From Pseudomonas baltica (GTDB lineage Bacteria; Pseudomonadota; Gammaproteobacteria; Pseudomonadales; Pseudomonadaceae), in contig NZ_CP134771.1 of the NCBI RefSeq assembly GCF_031880315.1, positions 2,418,001 to 2,482,000 of the forward strand: DNA of 64,000 nucleotides, in the 5' to 3' direction. Positions 2,150 through 9,687 of the stretch are shown one piece after another. Both the position numbers and the translations under genes were made by a program. Position 1 is the first letter of the stretch, and the number at the start of each line of letters is the position of its first letter. Below the pieces are notes generated by a model. That model had not been told where the DNA came from and ran no database searches. It saw only the letters and a list, made by a program, of their open reading frames with translations.

Positions 2150-2836
2150 TCAGATAATCGCGCCCAGCAGTGGCGCGGCAAAGAGGTTGAGCAGGCCGGT
2201 CAGCACCATCACCAGGCCCGCCACCGAGCCCTCTTCGCTGCCGACCTCTTGCGCACGGCTGACGCCCGCGCCGTGTGCGCCTACCCCAAACAATGCGCCA
2301 CGTGCCAGCGGGCTGCGCAAGGGTAGCCATTTGAGCAGGATGCCGCCGAGCATCGCACCGAATACCCCGGTGAACAGCACGAATACCGCCGTCAGATCCG
2401 GCAAGCCACCCAGGTCATGGGACAACGGCATGGCGAACGGTGTGGTGATCGAGCGCGGTACCAGCGAAAGCGCCACTGAGCTGTCGAGTGCCAAGGCCCG
2501 CGCCAACCACCAGGAACTGGCGATCGAGGCGCAGCTGCCCACCAGCATGCCCAGCAGCAACGCCAGCCAGTGCCGCGCCAGCAACGCCCGCTGCTGCCAG
2601 ATCGGAATAGCAAAGGCCACGGTCACCGGACCCAGCACCAGCAGTAGCCAATGAGTACTGCTGGAATATTCGGCATAGCCAGTGTGCATCGGTACTGCCA
2701 CCGCAAACAGCAGCGCAGGCACCAGAATCAGCGGCGACAACAAGTAGCGGCGAGTCCGTCGATACAACCAGCGACTGAACAGATAGGCCAGCAACGTCAG
2801 CGCGAGCCAGAACAACGGCATAGGTTCAAGCGTCAT
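2150..2836 (-). CDS. lrgB: LrgB/CidB family membrane protein
   Basis: A 228-aa integral membrane protein with about seven hydrophobic segments and the LrgB-family signatures SLVPRSITTPFAM and GVGAHGAGVSRAQEVG. It overlaps the upstream lrgA/cidA-type gene by 11 bp, so the two are translationally coupled. The pair resembles holin/antiholin-like systems tied to murein hydrolase activity, programmed lysis, or export of small metabolites such as pyruvate. That role comes from the family, not from this sequence. The divergent LysR gene at 3320 fits CidR-like control. Confidence 0.9.
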   Translation of the reverse strand: MTLEPMPLFWLALTLLAYLFSRWLYRRTRRYLLSPLILVPALLFAVAVPMHTGYAEYSSSTHWLLLVLGPVTVAFAIPIWQQRALLARHWLALLLGMLVGSCASIASSWWLARALALDSSVALSLVPRSITTPFAMPLSHDLGGLPDLTAVFVLFTGVFGAMLGGILLKWLPLRSPLARGALFGVGAHGAGVSRAQEVGSEEGSVAGLVMVLTGLLNLFAAPLLGAII

Positions 2837-3212
2837 GGCGCATTTTCCAGCGGCATACGGCGTCCACGGTAAAGGCCGTCACCAGCATCACCACCAGGGT
2901 ACTGATGCCGATCACCACGCCGATACGCAGGCCCTCCTGACGCAGCAGAGTGCCGTAATCGAGCATGCTCATCAGCGCCGGTATGAAGAACAGCAGCATT
3001 TCGGCCATCAACAGCCCGGCGCCCAGTTGCAGCGAAGCGGGCTTGGCCACGTTGAAGGCGAAAGCCAACAGCAGCAAACCGAGGCCGATCACGCCACCCG
3101 GAATGGGCCAGTGAAACCATGCAGCCATTTGACCGCCGAATAGGCAGAGTGCCAGCAGGATAGCCATTTCGGTGGCGGCCCTGGACCAGTATTTAACGCG
3201 GGTGGGATTCAT
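2826..3212 (-). CDS. CidA/LrgA family holin-like protein
   Basis: A 128-aa protein with four predicted transmembrane helices and the LrgA/CidA core WPIPGGVIGLGLLLL. It is the first gene of the lrgAB-like pair, with the lrgB start inside its 3' end. The length is normal for the family. The upstream leader contains the short palindrome CCTCTGCAGTAGAGG (3221-3235) overlapping the Shine-Dalgarno, so translation could be modulated. Whether it acts as holin or antiholin cannot be told from sequence. Confidence 0.88.
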   Translation of the reverse strand: MNPTRVKYWSRAATEMAILLALCLFGGQMAAWFHWPIPGGVIGLGLLLLAFAFNVAKPASLQLGAGLLMAEMLLFFIPALMSMLDYGTLLRQEGLRIGVVIGISTLVVMLVTAFTVDAVCRWKMRHDA

Positions 3213-3319: not shown

Positions 3320-4216
3320 GTGGAATTCAAGCAGTTACGCAGCTTTGCCGAGGTGGTACGCCAAGGCGGGTTCACCCAAGCGGCCCTGACCCTGCATATC
3401 AGCCAATCGGCAGTGAGCAAACAGGTCGCGCAGCTTGAACAGAGCCTAGGTGTGAAGCTCATCGAGCGCCAGGGCCAACCGTTGCAACTGACGGCAGCCG
3501 GCCATACCGTCCTGCAACATGCCGACGCCATGTTGCGGCTGCGCCAGGAGATGCACCGCGAACTCGACGACCTCAGCCAACTCGCCCGCGGCGAGCTGCG
3601 CGTGGGGCTACCGCTGCTGGGCAGCAACACCTTGTTCGCCAGCCTGTTCGCGGCCTATCGCCTGCGGTATCCGAACATCGAGGTGCACCTGCTCGAAGGC
3701 GGCAGCCGGACGATCGAGCAAGCGGTGCTCAACGGTGAGCTCGAGCTGGGCGGTGCACTGACCTCGAACAATCCGGCGTTCGCTTCCCAGCCGTTCTGCG
3801 ATGAGCCGCTCGATGCGCTGTTGCCCGCCGACCATCCCTTGGCAGGTAATCAACAAGTGCACCTGGCGGAACTGGCCGATACGCCGTTCCTGCTATATCA
3901 GCGCAGCTTCGTACTCAACGATCGCTTGCTGCAAGCGTGCCAGGCGGCAGGCTTCACGCCCAAGGAGGGCGGCCGCAGCGGCCAGGCGGATTTCCTCGCG
4001 GCACTGGTGGCGGCTGGCCAAGGCGTGGTGCTGCTGCCCAGCGTGGTCGCCCGCGCCCTGGTGCGGCCGGGGGTGATTCGCCTGCGACTGGTGGAGGCGA
4101 GCCATCTGCGTTGGGATATCGCGTTCATCTGGCGCCAGGGCGCCTATCTGTCGCGGGCGGCCCAAGCCTGGCTGCAATTGCTGCGCGAACGTGGACTGAC
4201 GCCGGTCAGCCCTTGA
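3320..4216 (+). CDS. LysR-type transcriptional regulator
   Basis: A 298-aa LysR regulator. The N-terminal winged helix-turn-helix (MEFKQLRSFAEVVRQGGFT, then AALTLHISQSAVSKQVAQLE) is complete, and the rest is the two-lobed effector-binding domain. The start is GTG at 3320; the ATG at 3301 is out of frame. It is divergent from the lrgA/lrgB pair across 107 bp and probably controls it, as CidR controls cidABC in Gram-positives, or acts as a CysB/NAC-type regulator. The last 11 bp overlap the convergent flavodoxin gene. Confidence 0.9.
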   Translation: MEFKQLRSFAEVVRQGGFTQAALTLHISQSAVSKQVAQLEQSLGVKLIERQGQPLQLTAAGHTVLQHADAMLRLRQEMHRELDDLSQLARGELRVGLPLLGSNTLFASLFAAYRLRYPNIEVHLLEGGSRTIEQAVLNGELELGGALTSNNPAFASQPFCDEPLDALLPADHPLAGNQQVHLAELADTPFLLYQRSFVLNDRLLQACQAAGFTPKEGGRSGQADFLAALVAAGQGVVLLPSVVARALVRPGVIRLRLVEASHLRWDIAFIWRQGAYLSRAAQAWLQLLRERGLTPVSP

Positions 4217-4836: not shown

Positions 4837-5310
4837 ATGATCAATGCCAATCTGCTACAGCTGATGGTCAACGCCTCAAACGACGGCATCGTCATTGCCG
4901 AACAGGAAGGCGAAGACAACATCCTTATCTACGCCAATCCGGCCTTCGAGCGCCTCACGGGCTACTCGGCCAATGAAACCCTGTATCGCGACTGTCGCTT
5001 CCTGCAGAACGGCGAACGGGATGACGCTGCCTTGCGATCGCTGCGCGAGGCGATCGACAACGGCCAGCCGAGCCGGCAGATTCTGCGCAACTATCGCAAG
5101 GACGGCAGCCTGTTCTGGAACGAACTGTCCATTACCCCGGTGCGCCACGACGCCAGCCAACGCACCTATTACATCGGTATTCAGAAGGACGTCAGCGACG
5201 TGGTGGCGGCACGGCAGCGAATCGTCGAACTGGAGCGCAGCCTTGAGCGGGCTCAAAAGCAAATCGCAGCACTTCAAGGTGACCAGCAAGAAGGTGACCA
5301 GCGGCCGTAA
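4837..5310 (+). CDS. Short LOV blue-light photoreceptor (PpSB1-LOV type)
   Basis: A 157-aa protein made of one LOV/PAS domain with short helical extensions and no effector domain. Counting from the ATG at 4837, the photoactive cysteine in DCRFLQ is Cys53 and the flavin-contacting glutamine in YYIGIQKDVS is Gln116. These are the numbers I recall for P. putida PpSB1-LOV and they support this start over the in-frame GTG at 4819. The C-terminus (residues ~125-150) is an amphipathic helix rich in Glu, Arg and Gln. The MerR/PplR-like regulator at 6123-7070 lies close by, as in P. putida, where LOV and PplR proteins together control light-induced genes. Confidence 0.9.
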   Translation: MINANLLQLMVNASNDGIVIAEQEGEDNILIYANPAFERLTGYSANETLYRDCRFLQNGERDDAALRSLREAIDNGQPSRQILRNYRKDGSLFWNELSITPVRHDASQRTYYIGIQKDVSDVVAARQRIVELERSLERAQKQIAALQGDQQEGDQRP

Positions 5311-5372
5311 CAAAATTGATAAACTGCGGTCGAAATAATCGCCCTTCCGTCTTTTATCTGTCGAGCACGAGC

Positions 5373-5975
5373 ATGCAATCTGACGCCCTCCTGACACAGG
5401 ATGAGCTGGACTTCATTCAGACGATGCAACACAACCCGCAGCTGAACGTGCGCGATGCCACGGCCAGCTTGCTGGTGAATGGCGGTGTGCAGATAAAGGA
5501 CTTGCTGACCCGACTGGTGGCCCAGGATCACGTGACGATCCAGGCACAATTTGAAAACCAGCAGATCAGTTTTCCACTGCAGCTGGTCGAAGACGAATTT
5601 CACGCCCAGCACATCAAGCTCGGGGCGCCGACCATTTATGAGGACGGCCCGATGATTCGCCCGTGGCGCTTGACGCTGGCGACGCCAGTCTCGCTGCAGA
5701 GCGATGACGGCAAGCCGACTGGCCTGTGGGCACGGGAACTGTCGTTCAACGGCATGCTCATCGAAGCCCGAGACCGCGCGGCGCCACTGGTACTGTCGGC
5801 GTGGTTCGCGCCAGACGGCTTCAGTGCCATGGCCATGAAAGGCAAGCGCCAGCGCAAGACCGCCGATGGCCTGTTCGCGTACCGCCTGCAGGAAAATACC
5901 GCACAGGAAACCGAGCGCCTGCGGCAATTCATTTTGCAGCAGCACCAGTTGAGCCATCCTCAGCTGCATGCCTGA
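5373..5975 (+). CDS. PilZ-like domain protein, function unknown
   Basis: A 200-aa soluble protein. The middle part (about residues 90-150) has a PilZ-like pattern: IRPWRLTL gives basic residues before the barrel, and ELSFNGMLIEA resembles the (D/N)xSxxG c-di-GMP loop. The first motif is imperfect (R-x-x-R rather than RxxxR), so ligand binding is uncertain. The N-terminal ~85 residues look like a YcgR-N-type beta domain. The start is the ATG at 5373, 62 bp after the LOV stop codon, so it may be cotranscribed with the photoreceptor. Confidence 0.65.
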   Translation: MQSDALLTQDELDFIQTMQHNPQLNVRDATASLLVNGGVQIKDLLTRLVAQDHVTIQAQFENQQISFPLQLVEDEFHAQHIKLGAPTIYEDGPMIRPWRLTLATPVSLQSDDGKPTGLWARELSFNGMLIEARDRAAPLVLSAWFAPDGFSAMAMKGKRQRKTADGLFAYRLQENTAQETERLRQFILQQHQLSHPQLHA

Positions 5976-5999
5976 TCGCCGCTTTGTGTCGCGTTCGCT

Positions 6000-6093
6000 G
6001 GCCTCTTCGCGAGCAAGCTTTGCTCCTGTGGGCGTACGACTCACGCTCAACCCTGTGGGAACAAGGGTGCGCGTTCGGCGGTGAAGAGGCCGG
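6000..6093. repeat. REP-type inverted pair
   Basis: GCCTCTTCGCGAGCAAGC with its following TTTGCTCCTGTGGG (6001-6032) is a Pseudomonas REP unit. A diverged copy in the opposite orientation ends at GAAGAGGCC (about 6051-6093). The pair lies between the convergent PilZ-like and PplR-like genes and could also act as a transcription end point. Confidence 0.7.
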
Positions 6094-6122
6094 TGAAGCC
6101 AGTACACATGCAACGCCTTCGC

Positions 6123-7070
6123 TCAAGTATCCAGATGGCCCTCCAGATATTGCAAAAGACGTCGCTGCATCAATCGCCCCTCGCCGCCCAGGCAAGCGAT
6201 CTGCGTGCCGATCAGCACTTCATGCGCCAGCTCGGAAGCCTCGCCCATCAGCATCAGCGGGCACTCGAGCGTCATCCCCAGCTTGAGCAACTGCCGCGGC
6301 TGCTCGCCATTGAGCGGGCGATGTGAGAACAGCGCCAGGGCATGGGGCTGGATCTTCTCGCACACCAGGCTCAGTTCGTTCAAGGGCTGCCCCAACGCCA
6401 GCACGTGGACATCCACCTGCGGACCGGCCAGCATCAAGCCTGCCACCAGCACTTCAAGTTCGCGGGTCGGCCCGGGCATGGCGGCCACCACCACGACCCA
6501 GGCCTGGCCATGCCCACGCGTAAGCTGCAGACGCTGCAGGGCACGGGCTCGCAGAAAACTGTCAAGAAACAGCCATTCACTGGTATGCCCGTAGCCTTCC
6601 TGGCGCCCCAGCAAGGTCTGCCAGACCGGCATCAGCACTTCCTGAAATGCCACCACCAGCGGGTAGCTGGAGAACACTTGGCCGTAGATGCGCTCCAGCT
6701 GTGGCTCATCGAACGCGGCCACGGCCCGGCGCACCTGAGCCTGCCACTCATGCCACTCGGCACGGGCACCACCCTGCTCTGCGTTGTCGCCATGAGCGCC
6801 ATGAGTGCGGGCGAGAATCTTGCCGACCTTGCTCACCGCTACGCCACGCTCGATCCACATCAGGGCGGTACGGACGTCGTCGATATCGGCGCGCGAATAC
6901 AAGCGATGCCCGCTTTCAGTGCGCGTTGGCTGGATCAGACCGTAGCGCCGCTCCCAGGCCCGCAGCGTGACGGGATTGATACCCGTGACTCGCGACACCT
7001 CGCGAATCGGGAACAGCTCTTCGCTGTGCAGAGCCTGACTATCGCGCAGATCGGAGGAGAAATCAGTCAT
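6123..7070 (-). CDS. MerR-family regulator, class II LitR/PplR type
   Basis: A 315-aa regulator. Residues ~15-85 form a MerR winged helix (FPIREVSRVTGINPVTLRAW, then ERRYGLIQPTRTESGHRLYS). The C-terminal ~190 residues match the cobalamin-binding fold of LitR/CarH, but the B12-coordinating DxHxxG motif is missing; the corresponding region reads MPGPTRELEVLVAG. This marks the class II LitR (PplR) group, which works with a LOV protein instead of adenosyl-B12. I chose the ATG at 7070; a TTG at 7079 is also in frame. Its binding site is probably the box at 7936-7959, and its gene is divergent from the ABM-domain gene. Confidence 0.85.
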   Translation of the reverse strand: MTDFSSDLRDSQALHSEELFPIREVSRVTGINPVTLRAWERRYGLIQPTRTESGHRLYSRADIDDVRTALMWIERGVAVSKVGKILARTHGAHGDNAEQGGARAEWHEWQAQVRRAVAAFDEPQLERIYGQVFSSYPLVVAFQEVLMPVWQTLLGRQEGYGHTSEWLFLDSFLRARALQRLQLTRGHGQAWVVVVAAMPGPTRELEVLVAGLMLAGPQVDVHVLALGQPLNELSLVCEKIQPHALALFSHRPLNGEQPRQLLKLGMTLECPLMLMGEASELAHEVLIGTQIACLGGEGRLMQRRLLQYLEGHLDT

Positions 7071-7339
7071 TGCGAGCAAAACCGAGGGTTAGCGAGTGTG
7101 CCGACATTCTAACCCTCATGGCGCTCGTGCAGGATAGCGCCGCTGAATTCGTCGGCCTGTCCGATACATGCTGCAACACACCTCACAATCCGGAATAATC
7201 CTTGCTTGTCTGATCAGGCGTTATCGCCGATGGCTGCACTACCTGCAGCCGCCCAGCCCTGAAGCACAGCCCACCACCCCGGCGCTGCGCTTTTTTTGAG
7301 CCCCTTACCCAGGACGCTCGATACGTACGGAGATACACA

Positions 7340-7921
7340 ATGTCGACCTCACCCGTCACCCTCATGGTCGCGCGCCGCGCTGCCGAAGGTCATTACCAGG
7401 AACTGATTGCCTGGCTGCACGAAGGCGAACACCTGGCCACCGACTTTCCTGGCTACCTGGGTTCCGGCGTGCTGGCTCCGCCCCCCGACGACGACGAATT
7501 CCAGATCATCTTCCGCTTCGCCGATGAGGCAACCCTGCACGCCTGGGAGCATTCGGCCTCGCGCCAATCCTGGCTACAGCGTGGCAGCGGTCTGTTCGCC
7601 CAGCCCCACGAGCACCGCGTGGCCGGCACCGACGGCTGGTTCGGCAACGTCGCCCACCCTTCTCACCCACCGCGCTGGAAGCAGTCCGTGGCCGTGTGGC
7701 TGGCGTTTTTCCCGGTCAACCTGGCCTTCAACTTTCTGCTGGGCCACTGGTTGAGCGAGATGAGCCTGGTGCCACGAATCATGCTCAGCACCCTGGTGCT
7801 GACGCCGATCATGGTGTGCTGGTTCATACCGCTCTCTTCGCGCCTGCTGGCCGGCTGGTTGCATCCGGCGCCGAAGCCCGCGATAGCGTCCCCAGTGCAG
7901 GCCGCGACGTCTACACGCTAA
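7340..7921 (+). CDS. ABM-domain membrane protein
   Basis: A 193-aa protein. Residues ~1-95 form an antibiotic-biosynthesis-monooxygenase-like ferredoxin fold (VTLMVARRAAEGHYQELIAW, FQIIFRF, LHAWEHSASRQSWL). Residues ~110-175 contain two hydrophobic helices (VAVWLAFFPVNLAFNFLLG and IMLSTLVLTPIMVCWFIPL). Proteins of this architecture are described only as ABM-domain or hypothetical membrane proteins. GGAG 8 bp before the ATG supports the start. It is divergent from the PplR-type regulator and precedes the light/pterin promoter, so it may belong to the light regulon. The substrate, if any, is unknown. Confidence 0.75.
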   Translation: MSTSPVTLMVARRAAEGHYQELIAWLHEGEHLATDFPGYLGSGVLAPPPDDDEFQIIFRFADEATLHAWEHSASRQSWLQRGSGLFAQPHEHRVAGTDGWFGNVAHPSHPPRWKQSVAVWLAFFPVNLAFNFLLGHWLSEMSLVPRIMLSTLVLTPIMVCWFIPLSSRLLAGWLHPAPKPAIASPVQAATSTR

Positions 7922-7934
7922 TGCACGGGTAAGG

Positions 7935-7961
7935 TTGTACAAGACTGGCCAGTGGTATAAC
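7935..7961 (+). promoter_or_regulatory. folM promoter overlapping a PplR-type operator
   Basis: TTGTAC (7935-7940) and TATAAC (7956-7961) are separated by 15 bp, a short spacer. The same bases contain TGTACA (7936-7941), 12 bp, then GGTATA (7954-7959). This matches the published P. putida PplR1 direct repeat T(G/A)TACA-N12-TGTA(C/T)A, as I remember it, with one mismatch. The site lies 70 bp before the folM start. An operator covering both core elements fits repression in the dark and release in light. Confidence 0.6.
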
Positions 7962-8029
7962 TTTGCTGCAAACCCCGTGCTACCCGGCCCCAGGATGCCA
8001 CGGCCCTCTGCACACACCACGAGCCCGTC

Positions 8030-8728
8030 ATGCCTGCCCCCGCCCCTATTCTGATCACCGGCGCCAGCCAGCGCATCGGTTTGCATTGCGCACTGCGCCT
8101 GCTGGAACAGGGGCAGCCGGTCATCGCCAGCTATCGCAGCGAACGCCCTGGGGTAAAGCAGTTGCAGGCCGCCGGCGCGCAAACGCTGTTTGCCGATTTC
8201 GCCACCGAGGCCGGCATCGAAGCCTTCATTGCCACGCTCAAGGCCACCACGCCGACGCTACGCGCCATCGTCCACAACGCATCGCTGTGGCTGACCGACG
8301 ACGCCGAGGACGCGCTGCAACGCATGCTCAATGTGCACCTGCGCGCCCCTTACCTGATCAACCTGCACTGCGCCGAGCTGCTCCAGCACGGCGGCCCGGC
8401 CGACATCATCCATATCAGCGACGATGTCACCCGCAAGGGCAGTGCCCGACACATCGGCTACTGCGCCAGCAAAGCCGGCCTCGATAGCCTGACCCTGTCA
8501 TTCGCCGCTCGCTTGGCCCCGGCGATCAAGGTCAACGGTATCGCCCCCGCACTGATCCAGTTCAATCCCGATGACGATGCGGCCTATCGAGCCAAAGCCC
8601 TGAGCAAATCGGCCCTGGGCATCGAGCCCGGCGCTGAAGTGATCTACCAGAGCCTGCGCTATCTGCTCGACAATCCCTACGTCACCGGAACCACTCTGCC
8701 CGTCAACGGCGGCCGCCATCTGAAATAA
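8030..8728 (+). CDS. folM: Dihydromonapterin reductase FolM
   Basis: A 232-aa short-chain dehydrogenase. The cofactor loop TGASQRIG is at residues ~8-15, Asn is in the NAS motif, and the catalytic YCASK is at ~144-148. The family makes tetrahydromonapterin from dihydromonapterin with NADPH and has weak dihydrofolate reductase activity. It is followed by folE (24-bp gap) and folX (overlap), forming one three-step pterin operon. The Shine-Dalgarno is weak (CGAG). Tetrahydromonapterin is the cofactor of phenylalanine hydroxylase in pseudomonads. Confidence 0.92.
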   Translation: MPAPAPILITGASQRIGLHCALRLLEQGQPVIASYRSERPGVKQLQAAGAQTLFADFATEAGIEAFIATLKATTPTLRAIVHNASLWLTDDAEDALQRMLNVHLRAPYLINLHCAELLQHGGPADIIHISDDVTRKGSARHIGYCASKAGLDSLTLSFAARLAPAIKVNGIAPALIQFNPDDDAAYRAKALSKSALGIEPGAEVIYQSLRYLLDNPYVTGTTLPVNGGRHLK

Positions 8729-8752
8729 AGCGCCCGCGAGGATGACCCTGCG

Positions 8753-9316
8753 ATGACTTCCAATCTGCCAGACCACTACCGTGAAATTCTCAGGAAGCTG
8801 GGCGAAGACCCGGACCGCGAAGGACTGCGCGACACCCCCAAACGCGCCGCGAAGGCCATGCAATACCTGTGTCACGGCTACACCCAGACGGTCGAGGAGA
8901 TCGTCAACGGCGCGCTGTTCGCCTCCGACAACGACGAGATGGTGATCGTCAAGGACATCGAGCTCTACTCGTTGTGCGAACATCACCTGCTGCCCTTTAT
9001 CGGCAAGGCGCACGTGGCCTACATTCCAACGGGTAAAGTGGTGGGGCTGTCGAAAATCGCCCGCATCGTCGACATGTTCGCCCGGCGTCTGCAGATCCAG
9101 GAAAACCTGACCCGCGAAATCGCCGACGCCATACAGAGCGTTACCGCAGCTTCCGGCGTGGCGGTAGTGATCGAGGCCAAGCACATGTGCATGATGATGC
9201 GCGGCGTGGAAAAACAGAACTCGCTGATGAATACCTCGGTGATGCTCGGCGCCTTTCGCGAGTCGAGCACCACTCGCCAGGAATTTCTGCAATTGATTCG
9301 ACGGAGTAACGATTAA
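8753..9316 (+). CDS. folE: GTP cyclohydrolase I FolE
   Basis: A 187-aa type I GTP cyclohydrolase that makes 7,8-dihydroneopterin triphosphate from GTP. The zinc ligands are in CEHHLLPF (residues ~76-83) and in [11 protein letters not shown] near residue 145. GAGGAT precedes the ATG by about 10 bp. Its TAA overlaps the ATG of folX by one base. It supplies the substrate for FolX and for folate synthesis. In this operon it is likely the monapterin-dedicated copy, controlled by light if the upstream box works; another folE could exist elsewhere in the genome. Confidence 0.96.
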
Positions 9317-9687
9317 TGCCACAACTGGAGCCAGGCACTGCGCGCATCCGGGTCAAGGATCTGCGCTTGCGCACGTTTATCGGCATCAACGAAGACGAGA
9401 TCGTCAACAAGCAAGATGTGCTGATCAACCTCACCATCCTCTACCCGGCCCAGGAGGCCGTGCGCGACAACGACATCGATCACGCCCTCAACTACCGCAC
9501 CATCACCAAGGCGGTGATTCAGCACGTCGAGGGCAATCGCTTCGCCCTGCTCGAGCGCCTGACTCAGGAGTTGCTCGACCTGGTCATGCAGCACGAGGCC
9601 GTGCGGTACGCCGAGGTCGAGGTCGACAAGCCTCACGCGCTGCGCTTTGCCGAATCGGTATCGATCACCCTCGCCGCCCAGCGCTGA
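9316..9687 (+). CDS. folX: Dihydroneopterin triphosphate 2'-epimerase FolX
   Basis: A 123-aa protein of the FolB/FolX tunnelling fold. [18 protein letters not shown] and the C-terminal [16 protein letters not shown] are typical of FolX, which converts dihydroneopterin triphosphate to dihydromonapterin triphosphate. FolB dihydroneopterin aldolases carry an EREKKQ segment here that is absent, so FolX is preferred. The start codon overlaps the folE stop. It is the third gene of folM-folE-folX. Confidence 0.92.

Follow-up and report, generated by a model that had tools for sequence, protein, structure and literature searches.

In this work, we focused on a gene cluster of Pseudomonas baltica, located in a 64,000-nucleotide stretch of contig NZ_CP134771.1 (positions 2,418,001 to 2,482,000; hereafter the window), in which a short LOV blue-light photoreceptor and a MerR-type repressor of the LitR family are encoded beside the pterin genes folM, folE and folX (Table 1). 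Blue light probably controls the pterin operon of this strain through the LOV anti-repressor mechanism published for Pseudomonas mendocina, as suggested by the genes, residues and operator read from the DNA, by the joint occurrence of LOV and LitR in related genomes, and by analogy with that species. The mechanism is largely published already and this cluster adds another member; what is new here is a predicted, intact operator in front of folM, which had gone unnoticed in an earlier reading of the same DNA made without database searches (the sequence-only reading). The published light switch is extended to another Pseudomonas with a concrete predicted operator, and our comparison of related loci predicts which species should, and which should not, raise their pterin genes in the light.

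Operator in front of folM

The motif TGTACA-N12-GGTATA has a single full match in the window, upstream of folM. A strict degenerate form of this motif was found at four places in the 6.63-Mb genome, the reversed control giving no match: one site precedes folM and three lie at about 2255.6-2257.2 kb, beside the gene of a second LitR (LitR1). LitR-type sites (TGTACA-N12-TGTACA-like) are in this way predicted both at folM and at a photolyase locus. When one mismatch was allowed, 13 places were retrieved in the same genome, three of them at the photolyase locus, versus six in the reversed control, so that the remaining ones are mostly background.

Among the loci fetched from related genomes, 33 sites of the folM form (29 distinct) were collected, one of which, in locus L109, does not precede a fol gene. 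They have in common an extended motif, TTGTACA-N11-TGGTATAAC-TTT, and conservation reaches positions outside the search pattern, e.g. the T before the first half (28/29) and the T at offset 27 (28/29). The second half-site would fall within an extended -10-like element, TGGTATAAC, so that the repressor could cover the folM promoter. Since a sigma-70 consensus scan with spacers of 16-18 did not call a folM promoter (TTGTAC and TATAAC are 15 bases apart), we only infer this promoter.

Photoreceptor, repressor and pterin operon

All the genes named in the sequence-only reading (LOV, PilZ-like, MerR, ABM and folM-folE-folX) were confirmed in the sequence where it had placed them, and the Cys53 and Gln116 that it had reported for the short LOV were both read in the translation. 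This protein carries PAS matches alone and no effector domain, which places it among the short SB-LOV proteins; its top match in the Protein Data Bank is 7r5n ('Sensory box protein'; E-value 1.1e-63, aligned residues 1-148).

The MerR-type repressor, hereafter LitR2, aligns with CarH (5c8d; E-value 4.1e-15, residues 15-247). In this alignment, the AEEHL and ERHEIG of CarH, which we take to be residues of the B12 site, are replaced by SEWLF and PTRELE, and both histidines are lost; PF02607 matches LitR2 weakly (E-value 0.11). Owing to these replacements, LitR2 was assigned to the class II LitR kind, i.e. regulators with a MerR helix-turn-helix akin to that of LitR/CarH and without a working B12-binding domain, in agreement with the earlier description of a LitR/PplR-type MerR devoid of the B12 motif. 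CarH and the other class I LitR, which are light repressors dependent on AdoB12, are MerR-type regulators like LitR2, but the cobalamin-site residues are replaced in LitR2 and a separate LOV protein would sense light.

The folX ATG overlaps the folE stop codon and 24 bp separate the end of folM from folE, so that folM, folE and folX probably form a single operon. The three products were each identified by NCBIfam models with scores exceeding the respective cut-offs (Table 1). Two further FolE matches were found in the genome (G000:C1 58917-59465 and 4991414-4991953, loci L139 and L140; 78 and 79% identity to the FolE of the window), and the window folE therefore need not be the housekeeping copy; none of the four strict operator sites of the genome lies near these two extra genes.

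Table 1. Features of the light-pterin cluster and of the second locus bearing the operator motif (positions in the window unless indicated; aa, amino acids; E, E-value)
Feature	Position	Strand	Remarks
Short LOV blue-light photoreceptor	4837-5310	+	157 aa; PAS_9 (Pfam) E 5.9e-20; Cys53, Gln116
PilZ-like protein	5373-5975	+	200 aa; predicted fold of residues ~97-196 resembles PilZ domains
Class II LitR-type MerR repressor (PmlR2/PplR-like; LitR2)	6123-7070	-	315 aa from ATG 7070; MerR_1 E 2.2e-14
ABM-domain protein	7340-7921	+	PF03992 E 5.5e-06
Predicted LitR operator TGTACA-N12-GGTATA	7936-7959	+	0 mismatches; 94 bp before folM
folM, dihydromonapterin reductase	8030-8728	+	NF005066 347.8 bits, cut-off 249; first gene of predicted operon
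folE, GTP cyclohydrolase I	8753-9316	+	NF006825 280.4 bits, cut-off 174
folX, dihydroneopterin triphosphate 2'-epimerase	9316-9687	+	NF008418 202.2 bits, cut-off 152
LitR1/photolyase locus (L017)	G000:C1 about 2255.6-2265.1 kb, outside the window		three strict operators

Published precedent and proposed mechanism

In P. mendocina NBRC 14162, the corresponding region comprises pmSB-LOV, PME15565, pmlR2, PME15555, folM, folE and folX (PMC9758184). Lit LOV binds the N-terminal domain of PmlR2 and lifts repression in vitro, and PmlR2 binds the folM promoter in gel shift assays. Light induces folM 2.4- to 2.5-fold and folE 1.6- to 3.3-fold, and leaves LOV (0.9 to 1.1) and pmlR2 (1.4 to 1.5) nearly unaltered (PMC9758184). 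The same TGTACA-N12-GGTATA stands there 95 bp before folM, versus 94 bp here. Both systems have a short LOV with Cys53, a B12-less class II LitR and folM-folE-folX; the LOV is 148 amino acids long in P. mendocina and 157 here. LitR2 is likened to PmlR2 by published description and gene position, and the PilZ-like and ABM genes match by position the unannotated PME15565 and PME15555 (PMC9758184).

In P. putida KT2440, the class II LitRs PplR1-PplR3 control photolyase, UfaM, FolE, CryB and others, light induction is lost in knock-outs of the short LOVs PpSB1-LOV and PpSB2-LOV, and the LitR consensus is T(G/A)TACA-N12-TGTA(C/T)A (Sumi et al. 2020, cited in PMC9758184). Short LOVs thus number two and LitRs three in that strain, whereas our searches of the present genome returned one short LOV and two LitRs, the second being LitR1 (32% identity). 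A literature search by titles and abstract openings retrieved no paper on this cluster besides PMC9758184.

We infer that the switch operates in this strain as it does in P. mendocina. In the dark, LitR2 would sit on the operator, overlapping the likely folM promoter, and folM-folE-folX expression would be lower. Under blue light, LOV would form a Cys53-flavin adduct, bind the DNA-binding domain of LitR2 and counteract it, and transcription of the operon would go up, probably few-fold. The pterin operon would be one of the targets of this two-protein switch, whose benefit might be the replenishment of reduced pterins/folates in the light, perhaps together with photolyase genes placed under the same motif.

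Pairing of LOV and LitR2 across genomes

The family set comprised 119 genomes, in which short LOV and LitR2 proteins were counted from scores of at least 150 and at least 160 bits, respectively; these cut-offs were set post hoc at visible score gaps (153.8 to 119.6 for short LOV, 166.4 to 145.3 for LitR2). Short LOV was found in 78 genomes and LitR2 in 68, all of them within the 78. The two genes are at most 3 kb apart in 61/68 genomes and at most 5 kb apart in 64/68, and the ten LOV-only genomes all bear the genus label g18. The paired LOV and LitR genes expected of a LOV-LitR anti-repressor system are found in the window as well, and the pairing of LitR2 with LOV in 68 genomes out of 68 favours the anti-repressor model across the family.

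Distribution of the operator among fol loci

In order to compare operator presence with gene content, 80 chosen stretches of the 119-genome set, mostly around folX, were analysed together with the window, i.e. 81 loci. Scoring was done on 250 bp upstream, here as in the named loci described below, and was possible for 75 loci (no lead gene was scored in L101 and L133-L137). With no more than one mismatch allowed, a site was found before folM, or before a leading folE, in 29 of the 43 loci with LitR2 and in 6 of the 32 without it, as compared with 0/170 control promoters. Locus L126 was scored as lacking LitR2 (BLAST match under threshold) although a LitR is present; when it is moved, the counts become 29/44 versus 6/31. 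Of the six site-bearing loci without LitR2, two belong to genomes that encode LitR2 at another place (G025, G061) and the other four are of genus g17. In the loci whose folE-folX unit is devoid of folM and flanked by LitR2 and LOV (L104, L109, L113, L116), folE has a site in 4/4 cases (0 or 1 mismatch). Loci with PilZ and without LOV/LitR2 (n = 16) have folM-folX without folE, and no site was found in any of them (0/16).

folE is present in 31 of the 35 site-bearing fol units, and folM likewise in 31, the exceptions being the four g17 units without folE and the four folE-led units without folM. The idea that folE is the constant light-linked step was therefore rejected, and neither enzyme is a constant target; folX was excluded from this question since loci were fetched by folX. 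Among the named loci, L196 has LOV and LitR with folM-folX, and no folE was found in that locus. The sequence-only reading had named tetrahydromonapterin as the output of the system. The units that LitR2 and LOV flank without folM leave this point uncertain, and the useful product may be tetrahydromonapterin, folate or a photolyase antenna cofactor.

A second sample consisted of 80 named loci fetched by using the PilZ gene as anchor. The complete order flavodoxin-LOV-PilZ-LitR-ABM-folM-folE-folX-DUF1244 was found in 61 of them, a conservation that exceeds chance.

Evidence against light control and alternative explanations

Several observations weigh against light control of the pterin operon as proposed above. 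The published induction of the fol genes by light is modest, and the gel shift left the lit LOV-PmlR2 complex on DNA, whereas surface plasmon resonance indicated inhibited DNA binding, the result that the authors prefer (PMC9758184). The association between site and LitR2 (Fisher p 5e-5) was obtained with a test that ignores shared ancestry, and 14 of the 43 loci with LitR2 have no site. Conversely, the four g17 loci keep a one-mismatch folM site, and neither LitR2 nor short LOV was found in three of the g17 genomes having it. Finally, LOV and LitR accompany the PilZ gene in 63 named loci, 60 of which are devoid of a folM site (at most one mismatch).

The three named loci that have it are L141 (Pseudomonas sp. 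MWU16-30317, whose PilZ is 100% identical to that of the window), L184 and L191, and a perfect site stands in two other named loci, L201 and L202, where neither LOV nor LitR is present. Siteless loci with LOV-PilZ-LitR-ABM-folM-folE-folX comprise L061, L063-L065 and most of L142-L207, and several siteless named loci retain TGGTATA but not the TGTACA half. Drift of the operator motif was rejected as an explanation of the folM sites missing from fluorescens-like genomes, strict motifs being present in all five genomes to which we give this label for their resemblance to the named loci (G030, G054, G071, G079 and G087). In G071 they lie at the RudS/LitR1/photolyase genes (L225), and G030 has a one-mismatch folM site (L059). 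With strict motifs persisting elsewhere in these genomes, folM seems to have dropped out of the light regulon in fluorescens-like relatives. Relocation of the operator to another folE was rejected as well, since no FolE match was found in 13 stretches around sites, taken from the fluorescens-like G071, G054 and G087 and from two genomes outside that group, G109 and G116. Light control of folM can hardly be predicted from gene order alone. The earlier proposal that the light module sets pterin supply gains from the operator, the LOV-LitR2 pairing and the P. mendocina precedent, but its step from clustering to light control is weakened by the siteless loci.

These comparisons bear on two alternatives. 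The persistence of the gene order with no folM site in most fluorescens-like relatives, together with the presence of the motif elsewhere (in G071, at LitR1/photolyase), could mean that LOV and LitR stand beside folM-folE-folX by inherited order only, light acting on the photolyase locus and not on the pterin operon. We consider this improbable for the present strain, where folM has a perfect operator, which is among only four strict sites of the genome, and because light induces folM in P. mendocina, whose genes are arranged alike (PMC9758184). It is also unlikely, albeit conceivable, that the folM operator is served mainly by LitR1, encoded beside the photolyase, and not by the LOV-adjacent LitR2. 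In P. mendocina, the folM promoter is shifted by PmlR2 itself (PMC9758184), and LitR2 was never found without LOV among the 119 genomes; on the other side, LitR1 is present in this genome, the motif is common to both loci, and three of the g17 genomes with a one-mismatch folM site show LitR1-like matches only, so that LitR1 may use the folM site there. Control of the pterin operon by LOV through LitR2 is the reading that we retain.

PilZ-like and ABM proteins

The structure model of the PilZ-like protein is good in its second half only (mean predicted local distance difference test score of 68.3 overall, and of 77-92 in ten-residue blocks of 101-180), and a PilZ fold is predicted for residues 97-196. 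PilZ domains usually bind cyclic di-GMP (c-di-GMP) through the motifs RxxxR and (D/N)xSxxG. Neither is matched exactly here, the protein having R96-x2-R99 and E122-x-S124-x2-G127, which are invariant in 37 aligned sequences; in another alignment, restricted to 12 PilZ-like sequences because 18 of the 30 loci (match on the minus strand) were left out, position 122 is Q in 2/12. The protein may bind c-di-GMP despite this deviation. As for the ABM protein, it combines an ABM fold (4dn9, E-value 1.5e-06) with two predicted long C-terminal helices (112-138 and 143-174).

Both proteins had been put forward in the sequence-only reading as possible new parts of the system, a proposal that their distribution does not support, as it does not track LOV/LitR2. 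The PilZ gene was found in 34 of the 119 genomes, five of which have neither LOV nor LitR2 (in G013, which belongs to these five, the gene contains internal stops); 39 of the 68 genomes with both do not have it, and it lies within 3 kb of LOV in only 15/34. The ABM gene precedes folM in L058, L067, L102 and L119, which are loci without LOV/LitR2. A working role of these proteins in the switch, e.g. as c-di-GMP input and as membrane partner, respectively, thus appears very unlikely, even with a predicted PilZ fold and with a position between LOV, LitR and folM kept in the 61 named loci, which were selected by the PilZ gene. We rather regard them as neighbours that belong to an older fol locus; in many loci, the PilZ-fold gene lies between a flavodoxin gene and folM-folX. 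A more elaborate scenario, which we regard as very unlikely, is that the PilZ-fold protein brings in a second messenger, making pterin supply responsive to surface or biofilm state as well as to light, certain lineages having connected LOV-LitR to this older unit and others having disconnected it by losing the operator at folM.

LitR1/photolyase locus and other sites

The locus L017 comprises genes for a TudS-DUF1722 protein (RudS-type), LitR1, a photolyase, an SDR, an FAD oxidase, a DUF1365 protein and a cyclopropane-synthase-like protein (UfaM-type). It is probably a second light-controlled locus, as its operators suggest, and it resembles in outline the pmlR1 region, which is induced by light in P. 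mendocina (PMC9758184). In L134, L135 and L136, the LOV-LitR2 pair lies at most 7 kb from LitR1.

Strict LitR-type sites were also observed upstream of chemoreceptor genes in a few genomes (L222:3446, L227:3396, L226:3506, L233:3574 and L229:3314). A chemoreceptor regulon was considered and rejected: the best matches in 59 genomes carry the site in 1/7 cases for the PAS type and in 0/11 for the type of 674 amino acids.

Elsewhere in the window, two ORFs at 2150-3212 on the minus strand, which we take to resemble the LrgA/LrgB (CidA/CidB) membrane pair, are divergent from a LysR regulator gene (3320-4216, plus strand), whose product scores 246 bits against the CidR model, short of the cut-off of 415 bits.

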